Position numbers and translations under genes: made by a program
Part shown: positions 3,960 through 36,822 of the stretch, piece by piece
How the letters are laid out: every line of letters begins with the position of its first letter
How positions within the stretch are numbered: position 1 is the first letter of the stretch
The notes under the pieces: generated by a model
The model's input: the letters and a program-made list of their open reading frames with translations, nothing else
What the model was told of the DNA's origin: nothing
Databases searched by the model: none
Assembly (NCBI GenBank): GCA_033819885.1
Contig: JAQYUZ010000024.1
Span: forward strand, 62,001 to 126,000
From: Microbotryomycetes sp. JL201
Lineage: Eukaryota; Basidiomycota; Microbotryomycetes
Reading direction: 5' to 3'
DNA length: 64,000 nt

Positions 3960-4683
3960 TCACTGCTGAGGTTCAGTCACCTCAGCACCGCCCGTTTTGA
4001 ACCACCTCTTCTCAGCAGGGTCGGTAGTGTTGGCACCGCCAGTCTTGAACCAGCGCTTCTCAGCAGGGTCGGTAGTGTTGGCACCGCCAGTCTTGAACCA
4101 CCTCTTCTCGGCAGGGTCGGTAGTGTTGGCACCGCCAGTNNNNNNNNNNNNNNNNNNNNNNNNNNNNNNNNNNNNNNNNNNNNNNNNNNNNNNNNNNNNN
4201 NNNNNNNNNNNNNNNNNNNNNNNNNNNNNNNNNNNNNNNGCACCGCCAGTCTTGAACCACCTCTTCTCGGCAGGGTCGGTAGTGTTGGCACCGCCAGTCT
4301 TGAACCAGCGCTTCTCAGCGGGGTCGGTAGTGTTGGCACCGCCAGTCTTGAACCAGCGAGCCTCAAGGCCCTGTTGCATCCCAGAAAGATATAATTATTC
4401 GTTGTTGCTTTATAACGGGTAACAAAGTGCGTATGAGAGTCGGCGGGTCACGTGCCCTCGGCGTCAGGACCCAAGGGCCCGCGAAGTGCTGCGGAATCCG
4501 CTAGCGCCAAAACGCGTCGGCTGAGCGAGCGGCACGCGCGGCACCATCGAGGAGCGCCATACGACTGACCACGGGGCGTTGACATGGAAGACAACTCACC
4601 TTGGAATCAGCACGGGGAGCCGGAGCGGCAGTAGCCAAAGCCGCAAAGACCGCGATGGCGGTCAACGGTGTCGAGAACTTCAT
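3960..4683 (-). CDS. Secreted repeat-peptide precursor with Kex2-type Lys-Arg spacers
   Basis: Exon 1 (4683-4600) encodes 28 residues beginning MKFSTPLTAIAVFAALATAA, a clear signal peptide, and ends at AAG with a GTGAGT donor. The acceptor is GCAACAG and exon 2 runs 4370-3960; the join is phase 0. After a short GLEAR linker the protein is a series of WFKTGGANTTDPAEKR units and closes with the variant WFKTGGAEVTEPQQ and a stop. Each unit ends in EKR, the classic Kex2 site, so Golgi processing would release peptides starting Trp-Phe-Lys; trimming of Lys-Arg would leave WFKTGGANTTDPAE. NTT is a possible N-glycosylation site. There is no long pro-region and no C-terminal CAAX motif. The design resembles alpha-factor-type pheromones, fungal Kex2-processed repeat peptides and dikaritin/epichloecyclin RiPP precursors, but the unit matches none I know. 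The intron (229 bp) is longer than its neighbours. Copy number is unknown because of the assembly gap. Confidence 0.82.
4005..4355. repeat. 48-bp tandem array encoding the 16-residue peptide
   Basis: Complete 48-bp units lie at 4005-4052, 4053-4100, 4260-4307 and 4308-4355. Partial units flank the N run (4101-4139 and 4240-4259). Because 48 is a multiple of three, all frames stay open and spurious ORFs appear on both strands. Differences between units fall at Ala, Pro and Arg codons and are all synonymous (GCT/GCC, CCT/CCC, CGC/AGG). Confidence 0.97.
4140..4239. other. 100-N assembly gap inside the repeat array
   Basis: Exactly one hundred N, the usual placeholder for a gap of unknown size. 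The flanking bases are in different positions of the 48-bp unit and overlap if forced into one unit, so the gap hides at least part of another unit and possibly many. Confidence 0.99.
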
Positions 4684-6218
4684 CGCGTGAGGGGCACAGT
4701 TGATTCACGAGACACGAAGGCGTGTATGTGTCTTGCGCCGGCGGACGACGTGCGGTAGTAAGGACGAGGGGAGAGTGGTTGGTGAAGAGGAAACAAGTTT
4801 GTGACCCGACCCGATTCTGTGGGAAAGATGAGCAGGAACGCCGGGAGATCGTCTGCACGCGGTCACTGTAATGCGACTGAGTTTGAAGCTTGAACCTTTG
4901 CGCTGCGCCTCGGCACGAGATCGCCTCTGTACTGCGCTTCCAGATCAAAAGTCCAGATTTGCAGTTCGTTACGACGGCCGTTTTCCTCGGCGGCGTTTTT
5001 GCCCCTCGCAAGGTTCGATGAACGCGTCCGCGCGCTCGCGGAACACGCGCGCTTTCATTCGTTTTTCGTGTTCTGAAAACACTGCAGTGCCTTTTTTGAT
5101 TGCAATGACGCGTGATTTTGGCCTTGTGCAACTTTACAGAACGTTACGTAGACCGGTAATAGTCGTGGCACGCGTGTCTCAAAGCTTTGAGACTTTTGTC
5201 TCGACAGCGCGCGCGATGAAACATTGAGCATGACGGCAGAATCGTATTGTGCGGGTTTTTTTTCTCACACATACCGACGACGCCGCACTCGTTTCGATGG
5301 TATTACCGTACAGAATCTGGTCACGATCTGCTGCAGATCCGATTCTTTATGTGTCTTCATCGAGCTGGAATGCTGACACGTGCCTGTGCCGCATGCCGCA
5401 TTTGCCGCCGCTCCGATCATTCATGCCATCAACAAAATGGCGGAAATGCAAATTCCATTGTAATGAGTATATATCGCCCGCGCTGTGCTTGGCGCACTTG
5501 AAGCTTGGCGAGCAATGATGACATGTAATTTTCTTTTCTTTGTTTGCATCGAACGCCCGTCATCCGAGGGTCGAGATGACGACACGCATAAAGAAAGCTG
5601 CAACGTGTGCCCTCGCGGTAAGATGTGCCTGCTGCTGTCGTCCCGCTCCTCTACACACATTGCACGCATGCGGCCTCGGATCCTGCGCCGCTTCGCAGCC
5701 TTCTTGCCACGCGTCAGGCGATCGCGGCCAGGCCGAATCCGCTCGGTCCCGAGCCTCAAGGATGGAGGTGAGATGTGACGCATGGAAACAAGACTCGTGG
5801 ACACATGTCATTTGAATTTTCCGGCCCGTCACGGCAGACGGCAGCGAGCATCCAGACTTTCAGAAACGCAAATTTCGTCGAAAGTTTATGGTTTCAAGTC
5901 TCGGCTCACGAAAAGGCAGCGCGCCAAGTCAAATCTGCAACAACCGAAAGTTTCTTTGAAAGCAAAGTGTGACCCTTGACAGCGTTTGTGTCCGATCACT
6001 TGGTGCCTGAGCGCGGCACTCTGCTCTTCTATCTCACCTCCGTGAGGTTTTTTTCCGAGCTCGTCCTGTAGTCATTCTTCCACAGCTCAGTCTGGTAGTC
6101 ATTCTTCCACAGCTCAGTCTGGTAGTCGATAGAGGCTTACAGATATGTGACATTCTGGTATTGACAGCTTCACCAATCGCGAGCGCTGTCGCTCTCACTG
6201 CTCAGTCCCTCGTGTCGA
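4684..6218. other. Long divergent intergenic region
   Basis: About 1.5 kb between the minus-strand repeat-peptide gene and the plus-strand secreted hydrolase; both promoters should be here. There is a CT-rich stretch just upstream of the precursor start, and a 27-bp duplication near the hydrolase. No coding exon is convincing. Confidence 0.6.
6068..6127. repeat. 27-bp direct repeat, about 2.2 copies
   Basis: A unit beginning GTAGTCATTCTTCCACAG occupies 6068-6094 and 6095-6121 with no visible change, and GTAGTC begins a third copy. It lies about 100 bp upstream of the hydrolase start codon. Confidence 0.9.
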
Positions 6219-9200
6219 ATGCCATGTTCCCTACACGTATGGACTAGCACGGTTCTCTGGCTCCTCTACTTGGCCTCTGTTGGTCTTGCACGGCAGTTGG
6301 TGCTTGAAAGACCTGTAACTTGGTCGGTGACCGGTCCCCATCCCGTCGGATCACGCGAAACATCTGTCCTTCCCCCTCTTCTTGCGATCAGTAGCCGGCA
6401 CGGCGCCTCTGTATTTGGTCCACACGGGCCCATACAGCATTTTGACGTCATCGAAAGCGACGGCTGGGTCAGGACCTCGTTTGACTTCATCGAGTGAGGC
6501 TTGCTTCGACCAATTAGCACTCTGGATCAACTGATGACTTCTCCACTGCCAGCTGGGCTGGCTTGCGATCGACTGCAGGGTGGAGTGTCTTGCAGCACCG
6601 AGCATACTTTGAGCGACCTTTCCTTGTGCCCCTTGGCGGTGTGCATGCGTTCGCACTGAAAGGTGCGAAAGAATTCTCGCTCTTGAAATTTGGAACGAGC
6701 GAGACATCACGACGATGGTACAATGGGGACGTATATTCCAACGACTCGCCGCCACATCTCGTTCATCTCGAAGAGGGCGAGTATCAACTCACAGTGGTCG
6801 CAGCGTACGATGTACGTATCAATGGTGATTCCGGTGTTGAGTCAACACCCTCTCTGGAGTGGCGTCTGGACGTCTCGAAAATTCGTGACCTGGAAATCAG
6901 GAGCTCGATCGCGCCCGATATTGTGAGCGGTAGACTCATGGGCAGCGTGGCCTCTTTTATTTTGTCGAATCCATTCAACCACTCGATCACTGTCACCGCT
7001 GTTCGCTCTCTTACACGAGATGTGAGTCCGATGCATTGCCCGGTTGCGGCTTCGCTCAAACGTACACACAGTTGCTAGCGAACCTAGAATGCCCCTTTCA
7101 CGTGGCGACACTGCAGTCACGGACGATCACAGTTTATCTAAGGCAAATCCGTCCGTTGTTGGACACGGTGTACCCTGTCCGTTTTGTCGTGAAGTCCCTA
7201 GATCGACACCTCGATGCAGGTCTCGCGATCAGAAATCTCTTGACGGTAGAAGCGAGAGCGGCGGGCTTTGTCTCGACATTCATCAGCAACACCGGTGTTG
7301 CATCGTACGCAGTCTATACGCCGCCGACTTCATTGGACTGCTCCGATGCTGTTCTTGTGGCGTTGCACGGGGCCGGCGTGGATCCTCGAAGTTCTCGTTT
7401 CTGGACGACCTCCATCCAGAGAAGACGCCACGAGTGGATCATATGGCCCCTCGGCTTGACAACCTGGGGATTCGATTGGCACGGACCAAGCTTGGCAGAC
7501 GTTGAAATTGCCACTGCACACCTTTCACACGTGCGACTCTCCTGGTCTTGCGTCGCTTCGACACCCGTAGAACCGGAGTGCTCAACTGCCACGAAACTGA
7601 TTGTCCTCGGTCACTCGAACGGTGGACAAGGCGCGTGGTATTTGACGTCGCGATTCCCAGACAAGGTGCTCGGGAGCGTTCCGGCCTCGGGCTAGTACGT
7701 GTGCTCCCTCACTTTTGCTCAGGAAATTTGCTGACCGCACTCTCGCAGCGTCAAGATTCAAGATTACGTGCCTTATCACCTTTCAGTGGGCGGCCATTAT
7801 CGAGACCCCTTGATGACTGGCGTATGCTTGTTTTTCCTTGACAGCATGTGACTGCTCAGCAGATTCGTTACTCCCTCAGGTACTTCAGAGCTCTCTCAGC
7901 TCATTCGACAACGACCTGCACGCGTCGAATTTGCAAGGGATACCGATTCTTGCCAGACATGGGGTGAGTAATTGTCGTAAAGAGGGTCTCTCAGCTTTTT
8001 GAGCCGGCATGTTGCGCAGACAAGCGACGACAATGTACCAGTATATCACTCGCGCCAGATGGTAGCCAGTGTGGCGGCTTGGGCAGGTTCGAGTGGCCTA
8101 GCAAACTCTTCTGCTACACTGAGCGAGGTTGCAGGCGAAGGACACTGGTTCGATAGCGTTCTCAATTCGAAAGAAGTCAACCAGTTCGTGTCCGATATCG
8201 TCAACGGCCATATCTCTAGGCAGGAGTTTTCCGAATTCACGGTAACGACAGTGAATCCGGACGAAACAGGCAGCGTTCGCGGGTTTCGCATACGACAAGT
8301 TGAAGTTCCTGGCAGACTCGCCCGCTTACATGTCGAGATCATACAAGGCGAAGGATGCGTTTTGCGCACAACAAATGTACGGACGATCGAGATTGATGGC
8401 GCCAGCGCCTTTGCCGGCCAGTTGGCTGGAAGCTTCAGCCTGCGAGTCGACGGAAACGATGTCGGCGAATTTGACGAGCGTTCGCGGACCATTGTCACAT
8501 TGGACAGAAGCGAGCTCTCGCCACAGCAATGGAAAAGCGATGATGGAACGCACTCTATACGCCGGTATGGACCGCTGATATCGATCCTCAAAACTTCGCT
8601 CCCAATCCTCATAGTCACCGGAACCCGAACAAATCACCTAAATCATCTTGTTTCGGCGGCCCAGCGCGTTGCACACGACATCTTGGCCTACGGCAGCGTG
8701 GACAGTGAGATCATGACCGACGCAGATGTGATTGCAGACATTGCGATGCTTCGCGGTCGCAACGTAGTGCTGCTCGGTAGCTCGCACGAGAACGCCCTGA
8801 CTGAAGCTTTCGCTTCAGATTGGGCTGTGCCAGGCGAGTTGATTGATGCTCGCACCTTGTCGACATTCTGACATGAGCGCTCGTGCTACAGTACGTTTCC
8901 CGTCTCGTCATGCTTTCCAGGTGCACGACCGAGTCTTTCAAAATGAAAACGAAGGTATGACAAGTTTGGTGAGGTGCCGAAACTGTGCGGCCCAAGGGCT
9001 GACATTGTCCTCCAGGAATCATATTTCTGACGGAACATCGCTTCGATCCTGAGAGCATGGCAATTGTAGTGGCCGGCAACTCCCGAAGCGGCCTCGAATT
9101 GGCACTGCGCTTGTTCCCAATCCAGACGGGCGTCACTGTACCCGAATGGGGTCGGTCGAGACAGACTCCTCCGCATCATATCAACTAACCAGAGTTTGAT

Positions 9201-29375: not shown

Positions 29376-32300
29376 CTAAAGCTGACCCCCCAACACGCCG
29401 TCAATCATGTTGTTGATGGCATCTTTTCGAGTCGTCAAGTCGGCATTTGGGAAGAATTGCGTTTGCAAGCCTTCTCGTGCAGATCTTTTTGTCACCTGCA
29501 TCAGATTCTGGGTTGCGAGGTACGCCCTGCAATCATTCGATGTCAATAATAAGCCCAACATAAGTGAGACCATATATCGAGCTCACTTGAGAGCGACGAG
29601 CAGCTCGTCGTCTGTCGGGTTCGTGCTTTGGCTTGGTTGTGGTGGACCAAAAGCGCCCATGCTGTAGACGCTGGTAGATCCCGGAAAGTTGCCATAGCTC
29701 ATGCCGCTCATACCCGACGCACGTCGATTGCCCAACATTGGCGGCGCTGGACGACCAAGCGCGCCGCCGTTGCCGAAAGACATCTGACTTTGCAATGTCG
29801 GCATGAATGCCATGCTTACAGGTCGATTCATGACGGGTGACTGCGTCGGGAACGCGAATTCTGAACCACCTCGGCTGCTTGGCGGCGCGCTAACACCATA
29901 ACCTGCTATACTGCCCGGTCGGCTCGCAGCGTAGTTGCCGCCACCAAGTACAGAGAGATTGTTCTGAGAATGTACCGTGTCACGATAGAAATCGGGTCCA
30001 CCTCGATACGAGCCGGGCGGCAAACGCGTGGCGAGTGAAAAGCCTGTTGTCGAATGCGTTCTTCCAGACACGTACGACTTTGCATCTTCGTCGTCGTCAC
30101 GGACTCGGGCCTCGTATCTGAAAGCCACGCGTCAGCTTGCAACACCGGCAAATAAAGACAGGCGGAAGCAACGTACTCGGCAAATTTGGCCATCGGAATC
30201 GTCGACTCGTCGAACGCCTCTTCTTCGGCTTGCAGAACCTTTTTGGATTTGCCTTCGCCAACAACAACACGTGTATTGCCCCAAGTGAAGCTGCGGAAGG
30301 AGGACAGTCAGCACTGCTAAACTTTCTGCGCAACGCGGAGCCGGGACTTGCTCGTCAAATCGCCAGAAACTGTAAATTGGAAGGACGAAACTGTATATCG
30401 GATATGCCATAATGTAGATGACAAGCCATCCGACGAATTGCCATTTACGCTTGAGAATAAAGATGATCGCTTGCAAACCGTACGTCTGGCAAGGGGGACG
30501 TCAGCGCCGATCATGTAGCCTGGCGAACGGAAACTTACGGCCGCAATCATGACGATGGCGATGATGGGCAAGGACGAGTTGCCAGTAGCGACTTCGATGA
30601 CGAGATACAGCTGCGCGGCAGGATCCGTCAGCAAACTTGTTCTGGACCAGATCTGCAGTGCGCTCACCAGATAGACAAACGTTGCGGGCAAGATCAACGT
30701 GCCGACAAGATCAATCATGACAAAGAAACGCATGCTGAAGCAGCAGAAACCACACATGTCGGGCAGGAACATGAGCTCAGCAAGATTGTGAACGGTCGAG
30801 TTGATCCATCGACGACGTTGCGACAACAAGATTTTCCACGAATGAGGCGCAACGGTCTGAGCTCGCGCATGGGGGATGAACTTGGTCTTGAAGTTTGGAA
30901 AGTGCTTGAGGATCAAGGTCGTCAGGTAACGATCCTCTCCAAGGGATAGCAAGTTTTTCTTGTGTAGCGTGTCCAATGTGCCCTGACAACAGCCTTGTCA
31001 GACCCGAGCACAGCATCATGCTGCTGATGAACACACCTCGGAATATTCGTCGATGATCAAAGAACTGCACAAAAGAGGTTTGCCCTTGTCCGCTGACCGC
31101 AGACGGTACATCGTGAAACTGTCAACCGTAACGTGAGCATGTGCCGGAGATGTCAGGTAAATAATGCTCACCATCCAGGCAGACACGTGACGGAACCAAA
31201 CAAACTTTCAAACGCTTTGGCCATATGATGCGAGATAAAGTATTCGTATACTTTGAGCCGAGCAAAGAATTAGCCTTGACACTAGACTGCCAGCACATTG
31301 CACGAACCTTGGATCATTGTCCACCAAGAATCGTTCTCGTTCTCGAGCCTTGTCTCACCGCAGATGCCGATAATCTTGGAATCATCGGCAGAAGCAGAGA
31401 CAAGACGGTTGAGCGAGTCTGGTTCGACGCTGGTATCGGCGTCAACGACCAAGAGGTACTACAAGGGCGGACTGAGTCAGAAGATCCAAGACAAAGCCTT
31501 ATGATATCTTACCTCGTAGAGTTGAGGGTCAACACCGATGACGTTTTTGACCTGATGATACATTTCGAGCTCGAGCGGATACATCTCCGAATCAAAGTGC
31601 ACCCTGTTCAAGAATCGCATCGCCAAGATTTGCGAGTCTCGCTTTCCTCGGTTGCCAGGTTTTGAGCGTTCCGAAGGTCGGCCCACTTTGGCGACGACGA
31701 CATAAGGCACGACGTGACCTTCAACTTCGTACAAGCCGCTCCACACTTTGCCGTAATTTAGCTGTTTGGAACCTTCAGCAACAGACTTGAACATGAGCGG
31801 ATCAGGATCGTTGTCTTGGTCGACGCCGAGAATATCGAGAACAATCCTCGGCGTCGCTTTGTCGTTGCCAGAGCCGATAATCATGCCGTCACAAATGATC
31901 AACATCAACTTGCGCTTATCGTCATACGTCAACGTTGCGAGCGAGTCGATTGTCTTGCGGAGCGAGTCTTCGCCTTCGGTGTAACACGTCACTTGACAAA
32001 TGACAAACTTGTCCCGCATTTCAGGCATCCGTTTTGAGCTGAACTGGAGTGCCGCTAGGAATTTGGCCAGGATTGTGGCACATAACAAGAGTGAGAACGC
32101 CAAAAGTAAACTCGGCTGGACTTGACAGCGAGGCGTGAGGCGGAAGTCGGTCTCTCCAACGTAGAACAATGTGTTGATGCAATCCATGTTAGTTTGGTAG
32201 GTGGCCGAATCCAAATTGAGATCCTGCACGTCGTTCGTGATATCGGCACCGGGTTGCGCTTGCCACAAAGACGCCAGGCTGTCGTCCAAAAACTTGTACG

Positions 32301-35300
32301 AATCGTCGTTGAGCAGGTCGATCTGTGTACGGCCCTGGTCAGCTAATGATGCACACCCCAATGAATGCGAGCTGACGGTATAGAAGTAGTCGGACAAGTC
32401 GTATATCTTGTTGCCAACAATTGACATCAATCTCGAGTTCGAGTCTGCCTGCTTCTGTACATCCTTCTTGGACCACACAAGAGGACCCTTGCGATATTCA
32501 CGCATGGTCGGAAGGAAGTTGTCATAATACCAATTGTTATTGTGCAGCTCGCTGCCGGTGTACGGCTGACGAGAACCGGAAGTGTGTACAGCGTCTTTGG
32601 CGGGCCAGCAAAATATTTAGCGGGGGAACTGTTCAAGCCGAATCAGAACCAACTTACTTGGCACAAGCGCAGAAAAATTCTGCACATGATGGACGGTCAG
32701 TGCATATCGACTAGTGTAAGGAGAACTCGACTAACAGCATATTGTAACGTCAAAGCGTCCGACGTGACCAAGTTCGGACACGCTGCCGTGAGAGGACTAG
32801 AGAATATTCGTGAGTCAGCACATACGAATGAGACGTTGGTCTGCACTCTCACATTGGGAAATAGTTGGTCAAGTCTTGTCCTGCTAACTCCAGCATGTCG
32901 GTCGATGTAACTTCCATTTCAAGAATGTCCGAATGCCTGACAGAAGGTGAATGTGAGTCTTTGATCGAGCCATCCGACACGAAAGACTGACTGCTTGCGA
33001 TAGAACTTGGTCAGGTCGTAGACCCCGCCCCGCACGGACACCCAGTAGTCGTCCGAGCCGGCGTGGTAGCCGACTTCTTTCGTATTCCAAGCTTTGTTCA
33101 TGTTTGGGCAGAGCAGTCGACCAAAAACAACAATGTCTATCGAAAGGCGACATCAGGATGAAGCAGACAACGCATTATGGCTCGCGACTTACAAAAGATG
33201 ACGGTACCGCAGAAGAATGCAATCAACATGCACAATGCGAGCTGTGATCACCAAAGGTCAACAATAATTTGGCGTCGGTCATCTCTGGACTTGCCTTTTC
33301 ACGCCACGCCATTCTAACATCAGGTCGTTTCATACGACCGACCTTTGTCAACGCCCATGTCGGACACCACCAAGTCAAACCCCACACGAGCGCGACCCAG
33401 ACTCGTCGACCTCTGCTACTCGCAAACTCTTCGACTGTCGCACCCTGAGTTTCTTGAGGCCGACCTTCGGCGTCGAGTACGCCTTCCTTGTTGTGGCGGA
33501 ATGGCGGTTGCCCTCCTCCACCTGTGGCATACGCTCCAAATCCAGTCTGAGTACCGAAAGCGTTCGTGTACAAACCTCCTGCTCCTCCCTTCTCGGAATC
33601 AGCTGCGTCCCCTTGACCCCAGACGTCAGACATTGTCGATTGTCGGTGGTCAAGGTACGGCATGGTCGGCAAGCTCATCATGGACGTGTCGTGGTGAAAG
33701 TTACCAAAGTCGTCCGGGCGGTAGGACGGACTATTATTTGTCGAGTTGTGCATCTGATCTCGCTGTTCCTTGCTCAACAAGTCTTCGACACTGTCGGCCA
33801 TAATACCATATTCATCTCCTCCGCCGAATGTGGTCCGAGACGTGGCTGTGCCGACCATCGCGGGCAATTCGAGCTCAACAGCTCCTGGAGTCGATCCTGC
33901 GCTTAGGCCTTGGCCGCTCGCTAGCCTCGACGCCGCCACAGTCCGATGATCAGGTGGTTCGGACCTCCTCAACCTGTCTTCAACGGTTCTCCAAGCTCTG
34001 TAACTCAGCCAAATGCGTTTGTGTCCGATCTTGTAGTCGTCATCGCCAACTCCGACGTCTTGCATGAACTCTTTGATCGTCTCCATTTTGCCGCCTCCGG
34101 GTATCGCATGACGGTCGGCGAACGCTTCTATCTCGTCATCGTGGAACAAGTCGACTCTGTTGCGAGCAATTAATTCGGGCAAAAGCAGGCCAGACACCTG
34201 CTGCTTGAGCCGTTGCAAGTCGACTTGTCGAGGGACGTGCATGTCATTTGGTCGCAGAGATAAGACGTGCCAGACGTGCGTGCGCTCAAACACATTCAAC
34301 ACGCTGGCCAATGAGGCGTTGATTTGTGCCGAGACGGGATGGATATCGGTCGGGTCGAGCAAAGGCGTCGTCAGGTCGGACAAGCCCGACATGGACGAGG
34401 TGGCGGCGCGTTTGAAGGGAGAAATGCGCCTGAGCGGCTGAGACGACACTTGTGCCGCAACAATGATGCTCTCGTCGAGAGGATGTGCTTCAGCTGCCAA
34501 AGACGGTCCGCTCCACAATTTGGCAACGAACGGATCAGCGCTGCTTTGAAGGAGCACGACGAATTCGGGGTCGATAGCATCCAAATCGCGCTCAACAAAG
34601 CCGTTGCCGTCATATGTGACCGGTCCCATCCAGTGCCTGACCCCGAACGCGCTCTTCGCTCCCGGTCCGCCAGGCGTGGCCATGAACGACGTGTGGACTC
34701 CAAAATGTTCTTTCATGCCCCTCAACAGTTCTTCATCTCCGTCGATTTCTGACGCAATAGTGCCCTTTCGCACACTGACGCAAGTTTTGGACATGCCGCC
34801 GAGCATGCCTCCAGGCTTCTTGTCCGCCTTGCCCCCAACTCTTCCACCTCGCAATAATTCGATCCTGGCGCTCGAATCTGCCGGCACGACATCGGGCAAA
34901 CGGATACCGTCTTCTTGCGCACGAGCAGCCTTGCCACTGTCGGCATCAAATTCGATCTCGGACATCCAGTACCTTGTTACTTCGCTGGCATAGTTTTCGA
35001 CAAATTCGTCAAACCCGTTCAAAGCCCTGACGAGCAAGCCTTGTGCGCCGACCGTTCCCGCTCGCGAACCTGTCCTGTCCAGCGGCAGATTCTTTGACGC
35101 AAAGCCAGGCTGGTCGAGCTGGAGGATCGACGTACCACCTTCGTCTTGCAAGTATGCGATCGCTTCGTCGCCCGGAAAGATTTTGTGATTTGCCGTCTCA
35201 GTAACGAAAGCGAATAGAATGCTGTACAACGCCTCGCACAGGTTGTCGCGCTGCCGTGACGCTGCTTCTGCTTCGAGCAACACTTGGACCATCTCTCGAC

Positions 35301-36539
35301 GAATCCATCTCGTCTTGTTGGTGAGACACCGTTCGAGTTCGTCCGACGAGATGCCGAGTAGCACTGCGATTCGTTCGAGCAAGTCTCGATTGGTGCACCA
35401 AGCAGATGTCGCCTGAAAGTCAATGTCGCCACGGTGATCGTCAAAGTCGATGTTACCGAGCAAGAGAATCGCGGACAAGAGTCTCCAGATGGCTGACAAG
35501 TGACGTGGTTTGAAGCCGAGCGTTTTGAGCGCGTTGCGCAAGTCGTTGAAAGCGATCGCGTCATCGGTCAAGTTTGAGATTGGGTTCGTCGCAGACGGAG
35601 GGAGTTGATAGCATGAGGACGATGCCAAGGTCCGATAATCTGTGATGTCCGGCAGCAGCTCGTACGCCTGTCGTTCGTCTGCGGTGGCGCCGGCGAGCAA
35701 TTGGTAAAATACGTGAAATGTGCGCTCGTCCTTGGCAAGTCGGTGCACTCTGTCGTGCTCGAGTCCCCACGTGAGCGCCTTTGCGCCTGCGAGTCTGCCT
35801 GTCGATGTCAAATGCAGTTCGATCAATGTCGAATGTCGGGTCGAGGACGGGTTCGTCGCCGTCTTTGCCGAGCCAAATGCTGTCAAGACCGTGTCGAGGG
35901 CGTTCACTTGGTCTGCGATGCGCAAATCTTTTTTTGTGGACGACGTCAGGCGCAAGATTTGCGACGTGAGCAGTTGGCGCTGAGTTGTTGATCCGGCGCC
36001 AGACACTCCACTGCTCGTGCGCAGGTGTGCAACGAGATGTGCATGTCAGCGTGTTTTCGAGACAGCAGACAGACGTGACCACAGAGACTGCCACTGATGT
36101 GCTTTCCTCCGATGCGCAAACAATGGCGCTCGTGCCACCGATCTCGCACACAGCCTGAGACTTGCCTGTACACGATGCTCTGGGTCTCGCGCGTCCTCGT
36201 TGCTTTGAGCACGACTCTTGCTGCCAGCTCGTACGGCCCTGGCCTGACGTTGTGCGTGCGCTCGATCGAGTCGTCCAACACTGCGAACGCGCCGCGCTCG
36301 GCCTCGTCCTTTGCCTTGTCCGATACATCCCCTGTCAGCTCGAACGGGTTCAAACTGACAAGAATGTGACTACCGGCGAGTGTCGATGTGCGTGATTGCT
36401 TGTAGCGGTGCACAAGCAGCGTGCAAACGGCTTCTGCCGACGCAACCGCCGTTGTCGCAGCCGCTGACCTGTCGACAAGCTGCACCAGGTTGTCAGACGC
36501 CAAAGCGTCCAGCGACGCCGACACGCGCGCCGACGTCAT
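29376..36539 (-). CDS. Chitin synthase with N-terminal myosin-like head (class V/VII)
   Basis: Makes chitin at the plasma membrane. The start at 36539 gives [20 protein letters not shown]. The myosin-like head continues through [12 protein letters not shown] and [15 protein letters not shown], then [11 protein letters not shown] and [19 protein letters not shown], to about 33900. A cytochrome-b5-like region ([29 protein letters not shown]) and [13 protein letters not shown] follow. The catalytic part has [36 protein letters not shown], then [11 protein letters not shown] and [13 protein letters not shown] with the QRRRW signature, and several membrane helices. A DEK_C-like C-terminus ends [12 protein letters not shown]. 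The head's P-loop lacks its usual Lys. About a dozen introns; one at 36011-36165 has a GC donor. Confidence 0.95.
36011..36165 (-). other. GC-AG intron in chitin synthase
   Basis: Minus strand: donor TGTACAG/GCAAGT, acceptor GAGCAG/TGG, phase 2, joining QSIVY to SGVSGAGST exactly where related heads have SIVxSGxSG. At 155 bp it is longer than most introns here. Confidence 0.85.
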
Positions 36540-36822
36540 GGCACGGCGATGCACGTAACTGGCGTGGGGCAAAGGGCTGTGCGACGAGAGAATCGGAGCC
36601 AGTGGCCATCTCACCGCAATATTCTCGTATTGATATTGACATTGCAACAGGTTCACGCCATCGATACCAACGTCTGTTGCGAAACGCAGCAAACTGTTGA
36701 GCTAACCGCATAGCCGCCACCGCAAAGCTCCCAGAGGTCTGTAGAGTTGTGTATTGGATCTGCGACTGCACCCGTCTTGCTCGGATTAATCGCACGAAGA
36801 TCGATCCTATGCCATGCTAGGC

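Follow-up and report, generated by a model that had tools for sequence, protein, structure and literature searches.

Which product is encoded by a short minus-strand gene that joins a signal-peptide-like exon to near-identical, KR-spaced repeats, and what could that product do for its fungus? The locus lies near one end of the window, the whole stretch of 64,000 nucleotides analyzed here, and it had been read in a preliminary description as a Kex2-type repeat-peptide precursor. We address this through the gene model, the coding character of the repeats, the enzymes encoded elsewhere in the genome, and a neighboring transporter gene.

Gene model and repeat array

The gene comprises two exons separated by an intron that is predicted from sequence (Table 1). 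To define the splice, joins were scanned between positions 5000 and 3900, using [CT]AG acceptors and intron lengths of 40 to 600 nt. Six joins leave an open frame from an ATG into the repeats, and only that of the 4599-4371 intron has a donor matching GTRAGT at 6/6 positions. Retention of this intron would shift the frame and then lead to a stop. We grade the predicted splice as likely and no firmer, because the sole branch-like motif found ([CT]T[AG]A[CT]) sits 93 nt from the acceptor. By eye, the introns of the neighboring OPT oligopeptide transporter gene appear shorter than the 229-nt intron of the precursor. Exon 1 contains a lysine, a hydrophobic stretch (GRAVY 1.44), and an A-x-A pattern recognized by eye, a putative signal region that depends on the predicted splice.

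Table 1. Features of the precursor locus and its transporter neighbor. Positions are those of the window.
Feature	Position	Strand	Description or basis
Precursor gene	3960-4683	minus	signal-peptide-like exon, in-frame intron, tandem WFKTGGANTTDPAE-KR units, and WFKTGGAEVTEPQQ with stop
Exon 1 (MKFSTPLTAIAVFAALATAAPAPRADSK), putative signal peptide and start of pro-segment	4600-4683	minus	hydrophobic stretch, GRAVY 1.44
Intron, 229 nt, phase 0, GTGAGT...CAACAG	4371-4599	minus	predicted from sequence
Exon 2	4370-3960	minus	repeat-bearing
GLEAR, end of pro-segment, possible monobasic Kex2 site ahead of first unit	4356-4370	minus	putative cleavage
Two complete units WFKTGGANTTDPAEKR	4260-4355	minus	unit starts at 4355 and 4307
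Start of third unit, cut by gap	4240-4259	minus	unit start at 4259
Assembly gap, 100 N placeholder, possibly hiding more units	4140-4239	none	run of N
Unit end cut by gap (TGGANTTDPAEKR)	4101-4139	minus	sequence
Two complete units WFKTGGANTTDPAEKR	4005-4100	minus	unit starts at 4100 and 4052
Terminal unit WFKTGGAEVTEPQQ and stop TGA (3962-3960)	3960-4004	minus	without sequon and without KR after it
OPT oligopeptide transporter gene	1-2887; matches continue outside the window to C17:61705	minus	family matches

The array displays four complete units, two units cut by an assembly gap, and one terminal variant. Each full unit spans 16 residues with a period of 48 bases, and KR closes all four complete units. 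Exactly one run of N occurs in the window, 100 bases long, and it falls inside the array. The two flanking units start at a distance of 159 nt from each other, and 48 does not divide this number. The run of 100 N is thus a placeholder, and the assembly does not give the total copy number. Gap lengths that fit the 48-base period are 37, 85, 133, and so on.

The splice scan and the array coordinates confirm the earlier outline of a signal-peptide exon spliced in phase to tandem units and a distinct terminal unit. The repeat units and the terminal unit of that outline stand, while the assembly gap, an NTT sequon, and the OPT neighbor had gone unreported.

The repeats are coding

We find that four columns (36, 39, 46, and 48) vary when the four complete units are compared with one another and with the gap-cut unit at 4139-4101, and that these four columns are silent in the proposed sense frame only. 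The four complete units encode one peptide in the sense frame; read in any of the five other frames, they give two to four different ones. Among 200,000 trials of four random substitutions, 0.19% were jointly silent, a figure that treats the changes as independent when two of them share one codon; the underlying count includes neither the terminal unit nor the one cut at 4259. The Arg codon of KR alternates between CGC and AGG, and KR itself is kept. Homogenization can produce near-identity among units, but homogenization alone would not limit the differences to the silent sites of one frame.

Furthermore, a six-frame scan of 104 kb, run without a shuffled control, found no exact repeated core behind dibasic sites other than the array, and a looser KR/RR scan of 187 kb likewise matched the array only. 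The third-position base composition is similar in the unit (0.69), in exon 1 (0.64), and in the OPT exon (0.65). The array is not a chance match, and the repeats are coding.

Probable assignment to the Kex2-processed repeat proteins

Kex2-processed repeat proteins (KEPs) are defined as having a signal peptide and internal repeats, at least three in number, with Kex2 sites between them (PMC6339444). At least three near-identical repeats are present in the array, and we count the layout of the precursor toward the KEP reading because it matches this published definition, with a putative signal peptide. We thus assign the gene, with a probability of about 85%, to the KEPs of a basidiomycete. The precursor is a new sequence in a known class.

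The enzyme kinds that a KEP requires are encoded in this genome (17.15 Mb in 92 contigs), given its Kex2, S10, and DPPIV_N matches. Contig C56 encodes a Kex2-like protein that combines S8 (subtilase) and P domains; its 816 residues are counted from the first ATG of the stretch, so that its N-terminus is provisional, and its transmembrane segment was recognized by eye only. Peptidase S10 carboxypeptidase matches occur at three places in the genome and DPPIV_N (DPP-IV-type) matches at one. Together with the repeats, the splice frame, and the silent-only differences, these protease genes support the original reading of a Kex2-type repeat-peptide precursor.

The placement of the host rests on a mating-type pair of divergent homeodomain genes. 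They face each other head to head on contig C1, at ~49.7-51.7 kb, one with a Homeodomain match and the other with Mating_N and Homeobox_KN matches, and they are probably the HD mating-type locus. We take a divergent HD1/HD2 homeodomain pair to mark basidiomycetes, and the host is placed there because of it. A trehalose-phosphate synthase exon was also compared with PDB sequences to place the phylum; its seven best scores are closely spaced (239 to 222 bits), and the homeodomain pair was preferred as the marker. The size of the genome and its long exons would point to Ustilaginomycotina.

The preliminary description considered such a precursor unusual in a basidiomycete, which published surveys do not support. 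A KEP survey reports 7,878 KEPs in 1,345 of 1,461 strains, with means per strain of 5.30 in Basidiomycota, 5.25 in Ascomycota, and 1.00 in Tremellomycetes (PMC7329392). KEPs are described from basidiomycetes including Ustilago maydis (PMC6339444), and mass spectrometry has revealed peptides of basidiomycete (mushroom) KEPs (PMC9769878). KEPs are common in fungi, and the phylum does not make the precursor unusual. Most KEP functions are reported as unknown, and kep knockouts of Coprinopsis cinerea as having no detectable phenotype (PMC9769878).

Searches for relatives of the precursor returned little. Pattern stretches were found in viral contigs (19) and in prokaryotic genomes (128), and none was confirmed as a relative; the model precursor had no match in Pfam. 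These collections and the PDB are not fungal, and thus they say little on conservation. Two PDB sequence matches (E 0.073 and 0.076) were judged to be chance. Four fragments of the unit are absent from the paper texts searched; supplementary KEP tables lay outside this search, and the unit may be listed there.

Proposed maturation

The precursor would enter the secretory pathway, where Kex2 would cleave after each KR and probably also after LEAR, ahead of the first unit. A Kex1-type carboxypeptidase would trim K and R, and the release would then comprise several copies of linear WFKTGGANTTDPAE and one WFKTGGAEVTEPQQ. The peptide may serve in signaling, directed either at the fungus that makes it or at what surrounds that fungus. 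A linear peptide of 14 residues is the most likely product, because the STE13 spacer of alpha pheromones is absent and no UstYa gene was found in the searches described below.

Every complete unit contains an NTT sequon, and the terminal unit has none. The peptide is perhaps N-glycosylated at this predicted site, and a glycan may shift the peptide masses that had been proposed for detection. The calculated MH+ values are 1494.686 for WFKTGGANTTDPAE, 1365.643 for the same peptide lacking E, and 1577.759 for the terminal unit. In addition, the terminal unit retains WFKTGGA and a T-acid-P spacing. The WFKTGGA half is therefore probably the recognized part of the peptide, the half that matters.

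Alternative readings

Several known precursor types resemble this gene. An alpha-type mating pheromone precursor would likewise have a signal-peptide-like exon, KR-spaced repeats, and an N-terminal Trp, but we consider this origin extremely improbable. The mating pheromones of basidiomycetes, to which the host belongs, are described as a-type (PMC6339444). Moreover, W directly follows KR in 5/5 readable cases, with no XA/XP (STE13) spacer, and the unit contains no Cys. No STE2 match was found in the genome, in a search that ran without a fungal control and that we regard as weak because it likewise missed STE3, which is expected in a basidiomycete. It is also very unlikely that the gene encodes a cyclic dikaritin-type RiPP, although its layout is identical in kind to that of a dikaritin precursor and DUF3328 genes have been described beside one KEP type that contains W and P (PMC7329392). 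No UstYa match was found in the genome-wide search, among the window ORFs scanned, or among those of the 40 kb beside it. The genome-wide family search ran without a working control and does not show absence. Within the window, the scan covered 105 ORFs (57 + 9 + 39) of at least about 140 aa, a size limit at which short exons could be missed, and for these ORFs the earlier statement that the window holds no UstY-like gene is upheld. Beside the window, 40 kb were covered through 45 ORFs with a minimum length of 150 aa, and no UstYa was among the families listed for them (25 of 28; the nearer 20 kb in full). The core unit contains no Tyr. Tyr is not universal, as some DUF3328-accompanied KEPs also lack it, and a DUF3328 neighbor is reported for 103 of 1,680 basidiomycete KEPs (PMC7329392). 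A scan of 104 kb for a UstYa-like motif gave 15 scattered matches, which were unconvincing.

The units could also be surface-active structural peptides, or the protein could stay uncleaved as a wall repeat protein. This has a precedent in the repeat protein Rep1 of the smut fungus Ustilago maydis, which is cut by Kex2 (PMC6339444). Both possibilities are decidedly unlikely here. The unit is short (14 residues) and hydrophilic (GRAVY -0.96), and this hydrophilicity speaks against a Rep1-like repellent; Rep1 peptides have 37 residues (PMC6339444) and are amphipathic according to the title of a paper cited there. The lack of a Pfam match for the model precursor also counts against this reading.

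The transporter neighbor

Downstream of the precursor and on its strand, the first gene to have a Pfam match encodes an OPT oligopeptide transporter. Its start codon is assumed at 2887, with an alternative in-frame ATG at 2983, and the distance from the precursor stop is accordingly 1,072 or 976 bases. OPT matches occur at at least five places in the genome, the window locus included. Two OPT transporter genes lie in tandem at C89:385793-393891. With five OPT genes in the genome, ~0.16% of genes would have an OPT gene directly beside them, by a hand calculation that was made after the fact and whose value rises with more OPT genes. It assumes some 6,200 genes, obtained by manual scaling of the figures for Tilletiaria anomala (6,810 genes, 18.7 Mb; PMC4056295).

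The Cryptococcus neoformans peptide Qsp1 is reportedly secreted, processed by Pqp1 outside the cell, and taken up through Opt1 (PMC7537855). Given this import and the OPT adjacency, the reading of the locus that we find most interesting is a possible pairing of peptide and importer. It would add a function to the KEP reading: the peptide might be a self-signal that is re-imported by the adjoining OPT, by analogy with Qsp1/Opt1. The position and strand of the transporter gene, the count of OPT places in the genome (at least five), and the Cryptococcus precedent speak for this suggestion, yet we hold it to be rather unlikely. The adjacency was noticed after the fact and in one genome, the peptide has 14 residues versus 11 in Qsp1, and the other four OPT places have no repeat precursor in the flanks scanned. 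These flanks comprised seven stretches of 3.7 to 10 kb, searched by a KR/RR-spaced scan; no precursor emerged either when two of these stretches were searched for tandem repeats. We found no account of OPT genes beside Kex2 peptide precursors in the literature searched, and "oligopeptide transporter" was absent among the matches listed in a literature search on fungal RiPPs.

A related form of the proposal is unlikely to a somewhat greater degree. Here, the precursor and the OPT gene would form a genetically linked peptide-and-importer unit, a KEP-based counterpart of Qsp1/Opt1, and a smut-lineage fungus would secrete Kex2-cut WFKTGGANTTDPAE and import it to read its own density. A KEP adjoining a candidate importer would supply one KEP with a testable pathway. 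Should the two genes be neighbors by chance, the precursor would simply add another sequence to a large class.

The remainder of the window contains further recognizable features. Upstream of the precursor, the divergent neighbor (6518-8871, plus strand) consists of open frames, one of which matches the alpha/beta-hydrolases weakly (E 0.0016, a match that falls short of the curated cut-off). A perfect 27-bp tandem duplication (2.2 copies, 6068-6127) lies between the precursor and this hydrolase-like gene. Adjoining chitin synthase and myosin-head matches on one strand (31477-36701, minus) look like a myosin-motor chitin synthase. Beyond 36 kb, one of 39 ORFs has an aspartyl protease match (Asp, E 3.5e-20). 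A search against Rfam found nothing in the window at gathering scores.

Comparison with known systems

The closest likeness is to the KEPs of Basidiomycota, with which the gene shares a signal-peptide-like exon, three or more near-identical units separated by KR, and a 14-residue core. Ascomycete alpha-factor precursors are similar in their signal peptide, pro-segment, and KR-spaced repeats, but here there is no XA/XP after KR, no Cys, and the host is a basidiomycete. Precursors of dikaritins and ustiloxin have a like layout, whereas no UstYa gene was found here and the core has no Tyr. Rep1 of Ustilago maydis, probably a member of the same subphylum as the host, is likewise a Kex2-cut repeat protein, with units that are much longer than the hydrophilic units described here. 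Finally, Qsp1/Opt1 pairs a short secreted peptide with an OPT transporter in a basidiomycete, as this locus may do, with uptake being hypothetical in our case. The two differ in maturation: Qsp1 is processed outside the cell by Pqp1 (PMC7537855), whereas the peptide described here would be cut from a Kex2-type repeat precursor.
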